Origin: a virus
Length of the DNA: 48,305 nt
Reading direction: 5' to 3' (one strand)
IMG/VR virus record: IMGVR_UViG_3300028800_000141
Coordinates: 1-48,305 of that record
Position 1 is the stretch's first letter; each line of letters begins with the position of its first letter. This document shows, piece by piece, positions 35,390 through 48,305 of this stretch. The position numbers and the translations under genes were made by a program. The notes under the pieces were generated by a model, which was not told the DNA's origin, made no database searches, and saw only the letters and a program-made list of their open reading frames with translations.

Positions 35390-35677
35390 ATGATAGATCC
35401 GCATTCAGACTACATGGTGGTGGAGAAGCACGAGAAAAAGACCAAGCTTTTTATACCCAAGGACGCCGAGACTATCCGGTCGGAGATGATACCCTTCAAG
35501 ATACTGGCCATAGGGCCTGGCAGGTGGGAGCACGGGACCTTCATAAAGACCACCCACAAGTCCGGGGACTTCGTGTTCATATCGGGCGGGGTTATCGAGA
35601 CCAAGTACAAGGACGAGCCGTACTACTTCGCCAGGGAGAAGGACATAGTGGCAACGCTGAAGGGGGAAACGCCATGA
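35390..35677 (+). CDS. GroES-like co-chaperonin
   Basis: The product has 95 residues, the usual GroES length. The series 'DYMVVEKHEKKTKLFIPKD', 'FKILAIGPGRWEHG', 'KSGDFVFISGG' and 'YYFAREKDIVATLKG' follows GroES: V.....kt..GI..P, ...V.AvGpG, v.GD.V, and .y..ire.DIlA. The mobile loop is shortened. It may pair with the host GroEL to fold capsid proteins, like T4 gp31. It could also be a non-chaperone relative. Confidence 0.65.
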   Translation: MIDPHSDYMVVEKHEKKTKLFIPKDAETIRSEMIPFKILAIGPGRWEHGTFIKTTHKSGDFVFISGGVIETKYKDEPYYFAREKDIVATLKGETP

Positions 35678-35880: not shown

Positions 35881-36186
35881 ATGAAGAACATAGGAATAAT
35901 GCTTGGCTCCGGTTTAATGGCCAGTCTGCTGTTCGTGGGGATACTGTTTTTCCCCAGAAGCGGCTCCATGGACGCGATACAGCTTATTTACTTCGGCAAA
36001 GAAAACGGGAATGCCTATAGTCGATGGGCGTTCGGGGAAGACTGGTACATGGTCAGGATCCGAGACATCATACCTCTCTGGAATAAAAAGCACCCCGAGG
36101 TCGTTTTGAGCGACGACGAGGACCTCATGTCGTCCCTTAGGAAGGTGGCCAAGTATATTCTGGCCCACCCGTCGGAGGTAAAATGA
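35881..36186 (+). CDS. Membrane-anchored hypothetical protein
   Basis: The product has 101 residues with GAGGAGG before the ATG. Residues 5-26 are a membrane helix or signal anchor ('IMLGSGLMASLLFVGILFF'). The rest is soluble ('YSRWAFGEDWYMVRIRDIIP'), probably periplasmic. It heads the cluster of envelope genes that ends in the glycosyltransferase-like gene. Confidence 0.6.
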   Translation: MKNIGIMLGSGLMASLLFVGILFFPRSGSMDAIQLIYFGKENGNAYSRWAFGEDWYMVRIRDIIPLWNKKHPEVVLSDDEDLMSSLRKVAKYILAHPSEVK

Positions 36187-36548
36187 CAGAGGACCCCAAA
36201 AGCCACGAGTACTGGAACGGCCCAAAGAACAAGGCCATCCGATATTGGTTCTACGTCAACCGGGGAATGGGGCTTGTGGACCAGTTCAAGAACCTGGTCC
36301 TCTGCATAGCCGCGTTGTACTTTGCCTTGAAGCTTAACAATCCCCTGTTCCTTGTTGGGATGTTTGTTGTAAGCTTGCCGATAGTCGGGGTCGCCGGGTA
36401 CATTCAGGTGCACCACCTGGGTAAAATACTTGACTGGCTCAACATTCGATTCTCGACCCACTACTCTATCGAGACTTTCGAGATCCAAAAGGACATCCGA
36501 GATGCTGTCAAAGAAATGGCTGCGCAGGGCCGCAAAAATCCTGGTTAA
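36183..36548 (+). CDS. Two-helix membrane protein
   Basis: The product has 121 residues. Residues about 36-52 and 57-77 are membrane helices ('LVLCIAALYFALKL', 'LFLVGMFVVSLPIVGVAGYI'), and the soluble end is charged. It overlaps the upstream gene by four bases and the next by 47. Role unknown; possibly a partner of the polytopic protein at 36630. Confidence 0.55.
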   Translation: MTEDPKSHEYWNGPKNKAIRYWFYVNRGMGLVDQFKNLVLCIAALYFALKLNNPLFLVGMFVVSLPIVGVAGYIQVHHLGKILDWLNIRFSTHYSIETFEIQKDIRDAVKEMAAQGRKNPG

Positions 36549-36633
36549 TGTTCTGCTGGGTTTAGTTATTTTTATACTTTTTGAAGTTGCCGCATTTGCC
36601 TTGTACATAATACTTCCATGGGGGACGACATGA
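36502..36633 (+). CDS. Small membrane protein
   Basis: The product has 43 residues: a basic start ('MLSKKWLRRAAK') and one membrane helix ('ILVNVLLGLVIFILFEVAAF'). It is embedded in the end of the previous gene and overlaps the next start. Function unknown. Confidence 0.5.
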   Translation: MLSKKWLRRAAKILVNVLLGLVIFILFEVAAFALYIILPWGTT

Positions 36634-38090
36634 GGGAAGCCTTGAGTGTGGTTTTTATAGTGGCCTTTAATTTGGTGGTGTACTGGAGGACTTTAAAGTA
36701 CGGCCTAGTCATGGACGACATGCAGCACTGGAAGGGAAGGAGGGAGAACGGCCTCAAGGGATGGGAGTACTTCAAGAGCATCCGATCAGGGGCTCAGCTC
36801 AAGCAGTGGGCCGACGAGAGACTCTATAGCGGGACAACCTTCGGCCTTAACCTGAGAGTGGAAAGGTCTTTCGCCATCTTTCTGAACGCCCTCGTGGCCG
36901 CCCTCATGTACCTGGCCTTGGGAAGAAACGAAGTTTCACTTGTTGCCGCGCTTCTGTACAGCTGCAATCCGGTCAACAACCAGACGTCTTGCTGGTTAAA
37001 TGGTAGGCGGTATATACTCTGCATAGTTCTGGTCCTGCTGATGGCGGCCTTTCCGCCGGCGGCGATCCTGCTCTACCCGGCCGCCGGGCTACTGCAGGTC
37101 ACCGCCTTCTTCTCCCCCGTGTTGTTGGTCGGGCATTCCCCTTGGTACCTCGCCCTCATACCGGCGGCTCTTTTCTTCACCAGGAAATGGATCGTCGACA
37201 AGATAAGCTCCAGGGCCAATGCCATGGCGGACGGCGACCTCAAGACGTTCGGATGGACCAGACCGATAGTCATTGTCAAGACGTTTGGGTTCTTTTTCTG
37301 GAAGATGGTATTCCCCCAGGTCTGCGCCATGCAGTACCCGGACAGGATAAAGTGGGGTCAAACCAAGGAGGCGAACGATGAGGCTTATGCGCTTAACAGC
37401 TCGTTTTGGATTGGCATTTGTGCTTTTGCCGTGTGTGCTGCTGTTGTCTTTTTTTGCCCTGGGGCTTGTAGACCTTGGGCTGTGTTCATGGTCCTGGCTA
37501 CGCTCCAGTGGTCGGCGATAATCCCGGTAACGCAGATACTCTCCGACCGCTACTGCTCCATGCCTAACGTCTTTGTCATGTTCTTCGTGTCCTATTTCCT
37601 GCACGCCTGGGCCGGGGTTTTTTACGCGCCCATTGCGTGTGTGCTGGGCGCCTACTATCTCGTGTGCCTGTCAGTGGTCATGCCCATGTACAGGGACGTC
37701 AATTCCTGGTACTCCTACCATTTTACGCATTTTCCGGGGCTATCCTGGTACAGGCACTGCCTCATATCCGACCTCATGAATGAGGGCAAGAAGACCGAGG
37801 CCTATGGGCAGGTTGTGGAGGGGCTCTACTATGACAGGGAAGACTTCAGGCTGCTCATGTGGGCGGCGATATTGTCGGCGATCCACGCAAAGCCTAAAAA
37901 GGCGATCGAGTTCCTCGGCCTGGCCGAAAAGAATCTATGTCTGAACAAGGAGAGTGAGCAGCTTGAGGAGATAGCCTATCTGAGGGAGCAGGTGTCAAAA
38001 CTGCTTGTTCTGGAGAAGAAGACGGCCTACATGACCGAGAGGGAGAAGGCCGTCTTCATGAAGTCCAGAGGCGTAAAGATTAGTGGATAA
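36630..38090 (+). CDS. Polytopic TMTC/PMT-like membrane glycosyltransferase with TPR-like C-terminus
   Basis: The product has 486 residues from ATG 36630 (ATGA overlap, GGGGGA site); an ATG at 36618 is possible. About nine membrane helices fill residues 1-360. DD at 29-30 in the first loop is where GT-C enzymes carry their catalytic acid pair. 'NPVNNQTSCWLNGRRYIL' and 'IPVTQILSDRYCSMPN' match the 'hPV..e.vaW..GRk' and 'P....ADRYlYlP' hallmarks of TMTC-type TPR glycosyltransferases. Residues 375-470 are TPR-like helices. It would transfer a lipid-linked sugar outside the membrane, perhaps to alter the host surface. Confidence 0.65.
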   Translation: MREALSVVFIVAFNLVVYWRTLKYGLVMDDMQHWKGRRENGLKGWEYFKSIRSGAQLKQWADERLYSGTTFGLNLRVERSFAIFLNALVAALMYLALGRNEVSLVAALLYSCNPVNNQTSCWLNGRRYILCIVLVLLMAAFPPAAILLYPAAGLLQVTAFFSPVLLVGHSPWYLALIPAALFFTRKWIVDKISSRANAMADGDLKTFGWTRPIVIVKTFGFFFWKMVFPQVCAMQYPDRIKWGQTKEANDEAYALNSSFWIGICAFAVCAAVVFFCPGACRPWAVFMVLATLQWSAIIPVTQILSDRYCSMPNVFVMFFVSYFLHAWAGVFYAPIACVLGAYYLVCLSVVMPMYRDVNSWYSYHFTHFPGLSWYRHCLISDLMNEGKKTEAYGQVVEGLYYDREDFRLLMWAAILSAIHAKPKKAIEFLGLAEKNLCLNKESEQLEEIAYLREQVSKLLVLEKKTAYMTEREKAVFMKSRGVKISG

Positions 38091-38496
38091 ACCATATGAA
38101 AGAGCTTAAATAAAATCCGGCGATGAAGTCGCCGAGCAGTTGCTCCCAACTGATGTATATCCATCCCAAGACCAGGGCACCTACCACGTAAGGCCCAAAA
38201 ATCCACCAGCTGAGATGCCCAAGAGATGCCGTACCAAGGCTCAGAGCGACGGCTTGGATTGCCATCCAAATACCTCTAAACCAATTTCCGATTTTCCCGT
38301 ACCCCAGACACAACGTTCCCATGGTCGGGAGGCAGCATGCGCCTAGCCACCAGACACCGCTGAGGAAAGAAACACTTACCGCGATAACTGCTGGCATGAT
38401 GAACCTCCTGCAAAACAGCCAGTGGTATCCGCCGGCCGCGTTTAAGGCACCGCAGATGGCGTCGATCATTGCTTTAATCGCTATTGCTAATGGCAT
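38080..38496 (-). CDS. Polytopic membrane protein, last gene of the late operon
   Basis: The product has 138 residues with at least three membrane helices, Trp/Gly-rich ('FLSGVWWLGACCLP', 'LSWWIFGPYVVGALVLGWIYI'). A GGAGGTAA site precedes the ATG. It is a candidate holin or antiholin by position and build. It overlaps the convergent gene at 38090 by 11 bases. Confidence 0.55.
   Translation of the reverse strand: MPLAIAIKAMIDAICGALNAAGGYHWLFCRRFIMPAVIAVSVSFLSGVWWLGACCLPTMGTLCLGYGKIGNWFRGIWMAIQAVALSLGTASLGHLSWWIFGPYVVGALVLGWIYISWEQLLGDFIAGFYLSSFIWFIH
38107..38134 (-). terminator. Possible terminator of the late operon
   Basis: On the minus strand CGGCGA-CTTCA-TCGCCG (38134-38118) is followed by GATTTTATTT. 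It lies inside the last codons of the final gene. The hairpin is perfect but the T tract is interrupted. Confidence 0.4.
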
Positions 38497-40130: not shown

Positions 40131-43100
40131 TTATGTGCAGGTTCCAAGTGTTGTACAAATTCCACCAGTAAATGCCTTGCATAGGCAGGAGGTTGATCCA
40201 GAACCAGTAACACCTGCATTGCTTCCAACCGAAAATGAAGACGATCTAACCGTTCCATTGACGTCAAGCTGTTGACCAGGGCTTGAGGATCCTATTCCAG
40301 TATTTCCGAATGATGTAATCACAAAAGGAATTGGGGTTAATCCAACAGATCCTAAATATCCAGTGACCGAGTAATAAGCAGTTGCTGAATTATCGGACCA
40401 AGATCCATTTTGATTCAGCCAGCTGTCGTACGTCCCAGGAGCTCCTGAAATATCTAAGCGCCATGAATTGTTAGAGCTTTGTGCTCCGGTTGAGGCACAA
40501 TATAAAGCATATGTTCCTGAAGAAAGGGTGGCGGCCCCGGTAAAATTAAAACTGTTCAAGGAATTCTGTGTTGGTGTAAATGCCACGGTTAGATTAGGAT
40601 TTGCTATATTGGTCGTCGGAGTTCCACCTGTTGTGGTCACAATATCACAAGTAATCGTTCCAGTTGGGCTATTGAAAGTCGCATTAAAATACCAACTTGC
40701 ACCGACAATGGTAGACGTACTTGCTAAATTGAAAACTTGGGCGCAAGATCTGGTGTTTCCACTAATGTTTCCAGGAGTGCAGTTTGCGCTTCCTGGGGTA
40801 GTTGTAATGCTGTTTAATGTTGAAGTTGTACTAGATACATTATTGTCAACTCTAAACATCGTTGAATTTGTAGGCACATTGCCTACATAAAGTGTGGCGG
40901 TTGGGGATACTGTTCCGACCCCAACATTGTTATTAGCACCAAATGTACCAATACCCACATTGGCGATTGTAACCCACTGGGTTGGAATCCCACCTCCGCC
41001 TACCAGAGAACCATTGAAGTAGAGGGATCCTGCATTGTTGTAGAGCAGATTTGTAATCGATGCCGGAGAGGAGTTGCTAGTTAATACTTCGCCTATGTCT
41101 CTGACAGTCCCCTGCACATCTAGGCTCTGCCCTGGAGTGGTCGACCCTATTCCAACGTTCCCAGCTATAATCGCTCCTCCGGTTGGTCCTGCCGTGGTCG
41201 TATAGGCGTCTCCATTAGCTGCGCCTATACCTAAATTGCCGAGCACAGTAAGGCGGTTACTGTATGCTGCCGTCCCCACGCCCACGTTTGTCCCGTTGGT
41301 CGTGAACGTGGCGAAACCGGCGAAACTTCCAGCGCTATTGTACTGAACCTCACTGGTCAGTCCGCCCGGAGTGCCCCCCCCAGCCCCGCAGTCGCTTCCG
41401 GTCCCGCTCACGACGCCAGATGAATTAGCATGGAGGCACTGAGTTCCAGAAGCCACGGATGATAGAGTGAGGTTGCTCGTCTTCGTGGTGCCCTGTACGT
41501 CCAGTTGAGCTCCTGGAGAGGACTGGTTGATGCCCACGTTGGCCCCGGTAAAGTAAAAGCCTGTCACCCCGGTGCTGTTTAAAAACTCGTCATTGGATCC
41601 AACTATGGCTTCCTCCGCAACTACGGTATTACCCGAATTATTTATAACCTTTTCTATGGTCTGTACTTGTCCGCTTGTTGTCAAGTCCCCAGAACTATCA
41701 ACCGAGAGTTGGCCTGTTGACCCGACCACAAGGGTATTCCCTGCCGTCTTCGTTCCTATGGCAACGTTCCCGACCGAGTTGACCTCTAGGGCATTCTTAG
41801 ATGGGCTCACGTGTACGTCCAGCAGATTTATGCCGTTGGTTGTGCCTATCCCGACGTTCGTGCCGTTGAAGCTAAAAACATTTTCTTTGCCGGAGAAAGT
41901 CCCAACTGGTGAGTTGTATTCCACGGCATTTAATCCGCCACCTGGGGTAGAAGCGGAGCCGGCGCACGGCGAACCAGCATCGATCAGGTTCCCGCTGGAG
42001 TCAATCTTTACGCAGTCACCATTTGTCAGGGTGCCGGAGGTCGTTCCGAATGTGGTGGTATTTCCAGAATAGGTTCCCGACGCTAATTGCTGGACAGAAT
42101 TTGATATGACCGGAGACGATGCGGTGAGCGCAGTGGAAACTAGTCCTATAGTACGGATAGTTCCTTGAACGTCAAGCTTTTGACCGGGCACAGTCGACCC
42201 TATCCCGACGTTAGCTCCGAAGTAGTTGCTTCCAGCCGTGTCGTTCTGCCACACGCCATACTCGTGGGTTATGACGCCGGTCTTGATCGGCGTATCAAAG
42301 TATGCACCATAATAATTTGTGACTGTTCCACTGGCGTTCGCGTTCTTCCCCTGAACATAAAGACCGTACATGTTGTTGACAGTTCCAGTGCTCAGGTTTA
42401 GGGGTTGATTCTCTTCAGCCCATAGACTGCCAACGGTTCCAGAAGAGGAATTGGCGGGCTCGTTGTAAAGGCCAGCCAACTGCGTTATGGTGCCGCTTGA
42501 TCCGTTCGATGGGTTGTTCCTAACGCCTTCCATGTCCGCCAGGGTGTTTCCAGACGTGGCGTTATAGGTTGGCTGGTTAACCAAAGCTAAATACGCCCCA
42601 GAATTTGCCACGCTCTGCGTTCCGTTAATGACAACATTTATATAATTGGTGCTGGAGTTCGTGCTGTTTCCACTGGTCGCAAGCGTCGTGCCACTGGCGT
42701 TGTTTTGAGCCTGTACCCCTACACCGGAAACAGAGTTGCTTATGCCAAGAATCGATATTGGAGAAGTAGAGAATGCCTCAAGCGCAGCCGAAGATGGAAG
42801 TATGCCTACGCCGACATTTCCATTTTGCTGGACATAGAAATGCCCCGTCGTTCCCTGCACGTCCATCAACGCCCCAGGCACCCAGGTACCCACCCCAACG
42901 TTACCGCTTGTGACCACCAGGCCGGCCCCCTGCGGCGTATTAGTGCCGATGCCCACGTTAGTCATGACGTTCTGATTTATGGTCCATGTGTTGCTATGAG
43001 CTAAATTTAGGGAAACCACGACGGCCCCCGTTGTAGGGCTGGCGGTAATAGTGCTGTCGGAGTTTGACACCGATGTAACGCCGCCAGTTATGGTGTTGCA

Positions 43101-44006
43101 TCCAAAAGCATGCGTTGAAGTGTTGTACGTCAGAGCGCTTGATCCAGCGCTGCAACTGCCGATAGCTGTCAGCGTCCACCCCGTCCCGTTACCAACCGCG
43201 AGGTCGTCCGCCGGTGCTGTATTTAAGCCTGTGCCGCCGTACTGGTATGCGACCGGAGTTCCCTGCCAAACTCCAGTTCCTATCGTTCCGACCGTCGTCA
43301 AGGAAGATGTAACCACGTTCGATGCTAAGGTTGTTCCGGTCAGAGTTCCAGCTGGGGCAATAACCGCATTTGTTCCGGCCGCCGTGATGAGGCCCTTTCC
43401 ATTGACCGTGAAATTTGGTATGGCCGTCGATGACCCGAATGCGCCAGTATTGGTGTTAACCGTGGCTAACGTGAAAGCCGCGCTCCCAGGTCCGCTAGCG
43501 GTGCCGTCCCCGGTCAAGGCCGTTATGTAGCTCCCGGAGGCCTGCTTGCCGTTGAACGTGTTCCAGTCCGTGGATGACAAATACCCATTGGTAGAAGTGG
43601 TTGACTGAGTGATGCCTATGGTGCCACTTGACGTGATGGTTCCACCTGTTATAGGCGCGCTCGTGGCTATGGAAGTCACGGAACCCGCTGGAAGAGAGAA
43701 GTACCCGAAGGTTCCCCCCGAGTTAGTGCCATAGTATTTGCTGTCCCCCGGGGTCGCGGAGTCGTTCACGAGGCTGACGTTACCGGATATTTTCACCAGA
43801 GAGTCTATGAAGGTCAGCGCCGACAGGCTGCCTAGGCAAACGTCTATGTCGTTGAGGGACAGTTGGACGTTTGTGTCGCTGGACGTCAGGCAGTTGGAGA
43901 AGCTGGACGTCGCCACCGAGATGTTGGCAGCGGGGGTCTGGGTCGCCGTCGCCCATCCGGGGGCCAAGACTAGAAGCGCTAGAACTACAACGATGCTTTT
44001 ATTCAT
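40131..44006 (-). CDS. Very large fibre-like protein with a signal peptide and paired cysteines
   Basis: The product has 1291 residues. Residues 1-22 are a classic Sec signal ('MNKSIVVVLALLVLAPGWATA'). The rest is Gly/Ser/Thr-rich with about 13 'NVGIG..' modules and five with 'DVQGT' or 'DVNGT', as in phage fibres and bacterial surface proteins. Cys occur in pairs about 17 apart (for example 'CVKIDSSGNLIDAGSPC' and 'CLHANSSGVVSGTGSDC'), and four end the protein ('CLCKAFTGGICTTLGTC'). No S74 chaperone domain is visible. It closes the tail-fibre genes. It may be a fibre, or an exported host-surface protein. Confidence 0.7.
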   Translation of the reverse strand: MNKSIVVVLALLVLAPGWATATQTPAANISVATSSFSNCLTSSDTNVQLSLNDIDVCLGSLSALTFIDSLVKISGNVSLVNDSATPGDSKYYGTNSGGTFGYFSLPAGSVTSIATSAPITGGTITSSGTIGITQSTTSTNGYLSSTDWNTFNGKQASGSYITALTGDGTASGPGSAAFTLATVNTNTGAFGSSTAIPNFTVNGKGLITAAGTNAVIAPAGTLTGTTLASNVVTSSLTTVGTIGTGVWQGTPVAYQYGGTGLNTAPADDLAVGNGTGWTLTAIGSCSAGSSALTYNTSTHAFGCNTITGGVTSVSNSDSTITASPTTGAVVVSLNLAHSNTWTINQNVMTNVGIGTNTPQGAGLVVTSGNVGVGTWVPGALMDVQGTTGHFYVQQNGNVGVGILPSSAALEAFSTSPISILGISNSVSGVGVQAQNNASGTTLATSGNSTNSSTNYINVVINGTQSVANSGAYLALVNQPTYNATSGNTLADMEGVRNNPSNGSSGTITQLAGLYNEPANSSSGTVGSLWAEENQPLNLSTGTVNNMYGLYVQGKNANASGTVTNYYGAYFDTPIKTGVITHEYGVWQNDTAGSNYFGANVGIGSTVPGQKLDVQGTIRTIGLVSTALTASSPVISNSVQQLASGTYSGNTTTFGTTSGTLTNGDCVKIDSSGNLIDAGSPCAGSASTPGGGLNAVEYNSPVGTFSGKENVFSFNGTNVGIGTTNGINLLDVHVSPSKNALEVNSVGNVAIGTKTAGNTLVVGSTGQLSVDSSGDLTTSGQVQTIEKVINNSGNTVVAEEAIVGSNDEFLNSTGVTGFYFTGANVGINQSSPGAQLDVQGTTKTSNLTLSSVASGTQCLHANSSGVVSGTGSDCGAGGGTPGGLTSEVQYNSAGSFAGFATFTTNGTNVGVGTAAYSNRLTVLGNLGIGAANGDAYTTTAGPTGGAIIAGNVGIGSTTPGQSLDVQGTVRDIGEVLTSNSSPASITNLLYNNAGSLYFNGSLVGGGGIPTQWVTIANVGIGTFGANNNVGVGTVSPTATLYVGNVPTNSTMFRVDNNVSSTTSTLNSITTTPGSANCTPGNISGNTRSCAQVFNLASTSTIVGASWYFNATFNSPTGTITCDIVTTTGGTPTTNIANPNLTVAFTPTQNSLNSFNFTGAATLSSGTYALYCASTGAQSSNNSWRLDISGAPGTYDSWLNQNGSWSDNSATAYYSVTGYLGSVGLTPIPFVITSFGNTGIGSSSPGQQLDVNGTVRSSSFSVGSNAGVTGSGSTSCLCKAFTGGICTTLGTCT

Positions 44007-47769: not shown

Positions 47770-48305
47770 ATCTTTATAATCCAGTTTAGGCCTAGAGAGG
47801 GCTGCACGTTGTTGTGAGCTCCGTCGCCGCCGGTAGTATCTGTTGTGTGCCCAGTGCCGGTCGCCCATACCGCTATATCGCTTCCAGTGACCACCACCGG
47901 GATTGCCCCTGAAAACTCGTGGTTGTGCGATGGCATTTCTGGGATAGTGAGAGTGTGCGTCACTTCCCCGAATTCCTGGCCTAGGGTAAGCCCCAAAGTA
48001 CCACCTATTCCCGCGGCCACCTGCCCCCTCATGTCTGGCAATGTAAAATGAGTTCCGTCCGCGGATCCAAAAGTCGTCCCTATAACCGCGAACAAAAGCG
48101 GGTAGTCCGTCCTCTTCAAAGACTGCCCCTGGCAAAGAAGCCATCCGCTGGGGGCCGCGGCGGCGGGCCAGGCCATCATCAACCCGGATTGGGTCAGTCG
48201 TTCACCGGTGCCGTCCGTCAGTGACGCGGCCGAGGTGTTGTAGCTGGAAATGACGTTCAACAGGTTGCGTATGCCCCCGAAGTAACGCCGTCCGATAGGT
48301 CGTGG
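47766..48305 (-). CDS. Spike-collar protein, 3' part (joins 1-551 through the circle)
   Basis: From 48159 down to the stop at 47766 this completes the gene begun at 551. It carries the tail-collar domain: 'SGWLLCQGQSLKRTDYPLLFAV' and 'GSADGTHFTLPDMRGQV', ending 'HNNVQPSLGLNWIIKI'. Bases 48160-48305 are the duplicate copy; the missing A at 48284-48286 breaks the frame there, so a gene start placed at 48260 (TTG) is an artefact. Confidence 0.8.
   Translation of the reverse strand, partial: PRPIGRRYFGGIRNLLNVISSYNTSAASLTDGTGERLTQSGLMMAWPAAAAPSGWLLCQGQSLKRTDYPLLFAVIGTTFGSADGTHFTLPDMRGQVAAGIGGTLGLTLGQEFGEVTHTLTIPEMPSHNHEFSGAIPVVVTGSDIAVWATGTGHTTDTTGGDGAHNNVQPSLGLNWIIKI
48160..48305. repeat. Right copy of the terminal overlap
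   Basis: It matches 1-147 with one A missing at 48284-48286. See the left copy. The true genome end is therefore 48159, followed by base 1. Confidence 0.9.

Follow-up and report, generated by a model that had tools for sequence, protein, structure and literature searches.

A phage-borne family of membrane proteins with a GT-C-type fold and a TPR-like tail, encoded beside recurrent small membrane proteins

The locus described here raises the question of what a phage does with a large multi-spanning membrane protein that resembles GT-C glycosyltransferases and ends in TPR-like helices. GT-C enzymes use polyprenyl-linked sugars as donors and act at the outer face of the inner membrane. The known GT-C-type surface converters of phages are found in temperate phages, which also supply the partners that make and flip the donor. 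A preliminary description had read the protein as a TMTC/PMT-like glycosyltransferase, and we asked how far this reading holds and in which phages the gene occurs.

The window, which is the whole stretch of DNA analyzed, is a single IMG/VR virus record of 48,305 bases. Its ends (1-147 and 48160-48305) share a 147-base overlap that contains one gap, and the genome is accordingly nearly complete. The contig is circularly closed or terminally redundant, and it is not flagged so in the record. The phage is myovirus-like. The minus strand encodes tail sheath, baseplate J, portal, head protease, and terminase, and the plus strand encodes DNA polymerase A, primase, thymidylate synthase, and a GroES-like protein. 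The latter, a co-chaperonin (Cpn10, E 1.2e-6) at 35390-35677, lies near the genes discussed below and also adjoins them in the closest relatives (L003 6260-6562 and L004 6812-7144). On the minus strand, a 1291-aa protein (40131-44006) carries many NVGIG...PGQ.LDVQGT repeats, is 55% identical in parts to its counterpart in L003, and is probably a tail or host-contact protein. A small multi-spanning protein (38080-38496, minus strand) is convergent with the GT-C gene; its counterparts are fused to a longer N-terminus in L003 and 45% identical in L004. Near the convergent late-strand end of these two relatives, a minus-strand gene (L003 10210-10932; L004 10287-11015) encodes a protein with, by eye, the look of a papain-type cysteine protease, with motifs around a Cys and a GGHC stretch; its counterpart was not found in the window.

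The open reading frame of the GT-C gene, like all window features given by coordinates below, is on the plus strand; it spans 36618-38090 and comprises 490 aa. The polytopic protein and the three motifs attributed to it previously are all present in this frame: DD (residues 33-34), WLNGRRY (126-132), and DRY (310-312). By inspection, an alternative ATG at 36630, with GGGGGAC upstream, gives a 486-aa product. This start, favored already in the preliminary description, agrees better with the starts of the relatives than 36618 and is probably the true one. The differences from the L003 gene by codon position (0.40/0.29/0.69) indicate purifying, protein-level selection on the frame 36618-38090.

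Relatives of the protein were found in 21 further IMG/VR records by one-sequence and then profile-guided scans. L002 and L003 share one protein sequence, and across the GT-C gene no difference separates L014, L015, and L017. The family comprises about 18 distinct proteins, including that of the window, at 23-54% identity to the window protein. Invariant in all 18 are D33, D34, Y70, W126, G129-Y132, L140, G224, P233, R311, Y312, and Y367. Since DD, W126, G129-Y132, and R311-Y312 are invariant at 23-54% identity, they are not a product of chance. At position 83, the window protein has Arg, whereas the other relatives aligned have His.

Apart from the TPRs, the window protein had no sequence match in Pfam, PHROGs, NCBIfam, INPHARED, or the PDB, and the GT-C models of the family libraries matched no member. 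The tblastn search of INPHARED returned no match for three members (E up to 1) and a single chance match for a fourth (40 residues, E 3). The plasmid search gave TPR-like noise only, PADLOC matched nothing meaningful, and BFVD returned only weak viral matches, such as a Nitrosopumilus spindle-shaped virus protein and the Oenococcus phage phiS13 protein V5UQY6. In 84,980 species genomes, scanned twice with narrow seed patterns that could miss distant relatives, no cellular relative was confirmed. The family is a phage-borne GT-C-type family without a name in the libraries searched (Pfam, PHROGs, and NCBIfam). We found no phage GT-C/TPR system in the literature either, in agreement with the earlier remark that no such system had been described.

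For the fold, an AlphaFold2 model was built from a 15-sequence alignment and reached a mean pLDDT of 89.4 and a pTM of 0.87; a model from two sequences only was poor (pLDDT 50). In VIA-align 2, residues 1-362 matched GT-C enzymes over about 280 residues with Z of 12.8-16.3 (PglB 16.3, STT3 15.6, Pmt4 15.5, ALG12 15.4, Pmt1 14.2, ArnT 14.1, AglB 14.1, and ALG9 12.9), although with mostly helical models a best Z around 14 may reflect common arrangements. GT-C enzymes made up 23 of the 24 best structural matches, Pmt1 and Pmt4 among them. Foldseek alone gave no significant match, with the best GT-C rows at E about 0.2-0.3. Because of this, and because a Z of 14 between helical models could arise by chance, the case for GT-C rests on the uniformity of the top rows. 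The profile search of the PDB with the membrane part was empty. Comparison by hhalign with a single E. coli ArnT, a weak test, scored no better than the LacY or CodB controls, and a single E. coli YfdI/GtrS showed no similarity separable from the LacY control. A GT-C fold of residues 1-362 is well supported by the confident model; the outcome that the preliminary description had named as refuting its reading, a confident model lacking this fold, did not arise.

The TPR-like tail (residues 358-470; 37689-38027) was recovered by profile and structural matches. By sequence, the family profile matched TPR chains of the PDB (best E 1.9e-7), VIA-align placed residues 361-470 on TPR domains (Z about 12), and single relatives matched Pfam TPR_19, TPR_17, and ANAPC3 (best E 4e-4). 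The TPR-like helices noticed earlier were thus recovered by independent searches. PglB/STT3, Pmt1/Pmt4, ArnT, and ALG9/ALG12 share the fold of residues 1-362 of the phage protein and an acidic residue after TM1; the phage protein differs from these enzymes in lacking detectable sequence similarity to them and in having a TPR tail instead of a large periplasmic domain.

Seven motifs are listed for TMTC proteins (PMC7801869). M1, M3, M4, and M7 were paired with the phage family from their succession in the sequence and the loops in which they lie, not from a residue-level superposition. Asp33-Asp34 (36714-36719), in the first periplasmic loop after TM1, is invariant in the 18 proteins and a candidate for the catalytic acid or acids; its position is the equivalent of TMTC motif M1 (DD in EL1), which is kept, and of ArnT D55/E56 (PMC7801869). 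The W-L-N-G-R-R-Y stretch of the second periplasmic loop (36993-37013), with W and G-R-R-Y invariant in the 18, aligns by order with motif M3 (RxD in EL2); the Arg is kept, and Tyr stands in place of Asp. In motif M4 (KE(T/Q)xxT in EL3), the Lys-Glu pair of TMTC binds metal and phosphate (PMC7801869). At the place of this Lys, the window protein has Gln160 (37095-37097), and all relatives aligned have Gln or His, followed by a non-conserved residue and then mostly T/S/N. D310-R311-Y312 (37545-37553), in the last periplasmic loop, is the counterpart of motif M7 (ERxxY in EL5) and offers a candidate phosphate-binding Arg. The acidic-Arg pair is kept, with Tyr at +2 in the phage family and at +4 in TMTC; R311-Y312 is invariant, with DRY in 17 proteins and ERY in L046.

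As in TMTC1-4 and in bacterial GT-C proteins that end in TPRs, a GT-C membrane part precedes the TPRs; the roughly 11 TM segments of the model and the loop between TM7 and TM8 are shared as well. It differs in its much shorter TPR tail, its phage-borne state, and the two small membrane genes alongside. Neither PF08409 (DUF1736) nor PF13231 was matched in the HMM check; PF08409 had no match in the window protein or 14 relatives, and its model gave none in the control genomes either. TMTC membership was rejected on the altered M3 and M4 and the absence of DUF1736. The TMTC/PMT assignment of the preliminary description is accordingly not supported: RxD has become RRY and KE(T/Q)xxT has become [QH]x[TSN] (PMC7801869), and the protein is not filed as TMTC because these two defining motifs are not kept.

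The stretch 188-215 between TM6 and TM7 is strongly basic (mean 8.4 Lys+Arg versus 2.6 acidic residues), which suits a cytoplasmic loop and would therefore place the three motif loops in the periplasm. With eleven TM segments and a cytoplasmic 188-215, the TPR tail would be periplasmic too. The charge distribution agrees with the GT-C topology. In four relatives (L007 554-2149, L012 1393-2880, L013 5542-7002, and L043 1733-3262), the first periplasmic loop contains a CxxCxGxG zinc ribbon inserted in two parts (Pfam DnaJ_CXXCXGXG, best E 7e-4), and such a DnaJ-like insert is unusual for an extracytoplasmic loop. The 261-aa relative L046 6406-7191 keeps DD, GRRY, and ERY and lacks the middle membrane segments and the TPRs. 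It sits behind the same two small membrane genes and may be an enzyme reduced to its minimum or else a copy in decay.

One of these two genes, at 36183-36548, encodes a protein of about 120 aa with two hydrophobic segments that recurs with the GT-C gene and is its probable partner. Homologues were found in 13 further IMG/VR records, and the GT-C gene is present in 11 of these as well; with the window, the two-TM gene is present in 14 records and the GT-C gene in 12 of them. The two records without the GT-C gene, L049 and L050, are fragmentary (9 and 13 kb). The two-TM gene lies directly upstream of the GT-C gene in most cases and apart from it in L019 and the L047 record. In L047, L049, and L050 it is located around 6000 (4721 in L049) and follows other genes of unknown function. 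The identities of the two proteins correlate over nine phages (r 0.43, Mantel p 0.03), a correlation that common descent alone could produce.

Between the two genes, a 43-aa single-TM peptide (36502-36633) overlaps both neighbors and is a possible third member of the cassette; single-TM frames of 37-79 aa occupy this place in the window, L003, L004, L007, L043, and L046. Further upstream, the operon includes a 101-aa protein with one hydrophobic N-terminal segment (35881-36186), which had no family match and no relative among the loci in an all-against-all comparison. It is part of the operon, and its membership in the cassette is not supported. All three small membrane genes described earlier are thus there, and only those at 36183-36548 and 36502-36633 recur in relatives. 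Of the set 35881-38090, the GT-C gene and these two small genes recur in related phages, and 35881-36186 is without a counterpart.

The carriers have unrelated backbones. The window has a sheathed tail, L009 a head-tail adaptor of phrog_332, and L014 a phrog_113 portal. Their large terminases belong to several different families, and terminase genes of several families adjoin the enzyme gene in L007, L009, L012, L014, L018, L019, and the L047 record. The module is therefore not bound to one phage lineage. The position at the end of the early operon, given in the preliminary description, holds for the window; elsewhere, the gene is often beside terminase genes.

The phage systems closest in kind are the Gtr systems (GtrA flippase, GtrB GT-A, and GtrC/GtrS GT-C). 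Shared with them are a phage multi-spanning GT-C protein, a small membrane protein beside it, and, likely, an envelope target. According to PMC8035078, a multi-spanning GT-C enzyme also forms the third Gtr component. The earlier statement that Gtr systems have a different build is therefore correct only in part; the difference lies in the lack of GtrA and GtrB here, and in sequence and lifestyle. No GtrB-type GT-A (PF00535) was detected in any of 14 carrier records, several of which are fragments, with 14 of 14 controls positive; GtrA-type flippases (PF04138) were likewise absent from the 14, with positive controls. The carriers differ from Gtr phages also in lacking a tyrosine integrase (PF00589, 0/14), and the family in lacking similarity to YfdI/GtrS and in its added TPR tail. 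Serine recombinases (PF00239) were absent from the 11 carrier records searched. Lysogenic conversion is known for P22 and Shigella phages (PMC11436027); since neither PF00589 nor PF00239 was found, conversion of that kind is unlikely here. Imm and Sp, superinfection-exclusion membrane proteins of T4, inhibit DNA injection (PMC11436027). These proteins of virulent phages are likewise small or membrane proteins made during infection, and they differ in not being GT-C-like; an exclusion role for the present genes is hypothesized only.

Taken together, we consider a GT-C glycosyltransferase that uses a lipid-linked sugar from the host, acts at the periplasmic face, and remodels the envelope during lytic infection to be the best explanation, with a probability of about 0.6. 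Eleven TM segments would hold a periplasm-facing site of putative enzymatic activity, made up of D33/D34 and the GRRY and DRY loops. The sugar would be taken from a host polyprenyl-linked donor; donor and flipping would both come from the host because the carriers tested encode neither PF00535 nor PF04138. Transfer would take place on the outer face of the inner membrane, to an envelope glycan or to an exported protein, and the latter would be presented to the periplasmic TPR tail. Membrane partners would be the two-TM protein and, in many carriers, the TM peptide of about 40 aa. The lipid-linked donor, the topology, and the partner role of the two-TM protein are inferred.

A rival reading is a protein glycosyltransferase of TMTC/PMT type. 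In this case, the TPR tail would recruit a specific periplasmic host or phage protein, such as an outer-membrane receptor, and O-glycosylation would silence the receptor or alter its stability. Pmt1 and Pmt4 are among the closest folds, TPR tails bind proteins, the CxxCxGxG zinc insert in the first loop of some relatives is a typical protein-binding element, and TMTC likewise combines a GT-C part with TPRs (PMC7801869). We regard this as unlikely, given that the TMTC motifs RxD and KE(T/Q)xxT are not kept and that the tail is short (about 110 residues).

The loss of the Lys-Glu motif would also suit a dead GT-C relative or donor thief. Together with its TM partners, such a protein would bind precursors on polyprenyl carriers, or glycosyltransferases of the host, and block envelope synthesis, either aiding lysis or stopping host glycan assembly. 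The tiny TM peptides alongside the gene, its convergence in the window on the late-strand end, a site of small membrane genes, and the L046 version, with its motifs kept without the middle of the membrane domain, all fit such a protein. To our knowledge, however, GT-C enzymes other than TMTC, such as PglB, also lack the Lys-Glu motif, and the acidic pair and R311-Y312 are absolutely conserved at 23-54% identity, as in an active site; we therefore hold this reading to be rather improbable. A non-enzymatic membrane protein, whose GT-C likeness is a common helical arrangement only, would explain the lack of GT-C sequence similarity and the non-significant Foldseek result. It is hard to reconcile with the high-confidence model, the GT-C enzymes in 23 of 24 top rows over about 280 residues, and the acidic pair and loop order that match GT-C, and we give it very little weight.

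If the glycosyltransferase reading is correct, the benefit would lie in an envelope change during lytic infection that blocks further phages or stops progeny from sticking to debris; we hypothesize superinfection exclusion or lytic conversion as the role. More tentatively, at somewhat less than even odds, the two-TM protein, the TM peptide of about 40 aa, and the GT-C/TPR enzyme may form a previously undescribed lytic cassette that myo- and podovirus-like phages of unrelated kinds have in common. Within a single infection cycle, it would divert lipid-linked sugars of the host to the glycosylation of targets in the periplasm or at the surface, a surface conversion that needs no lysogeny. The invariant residues of the family are direct targets for mutants. 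The recurrence of a GT-C/TPR enzyme, accompanied by new small membrane partners, in phages without integrase, GtrA, or GtrB suggests that lytic phages also rewrite envelope sugars.
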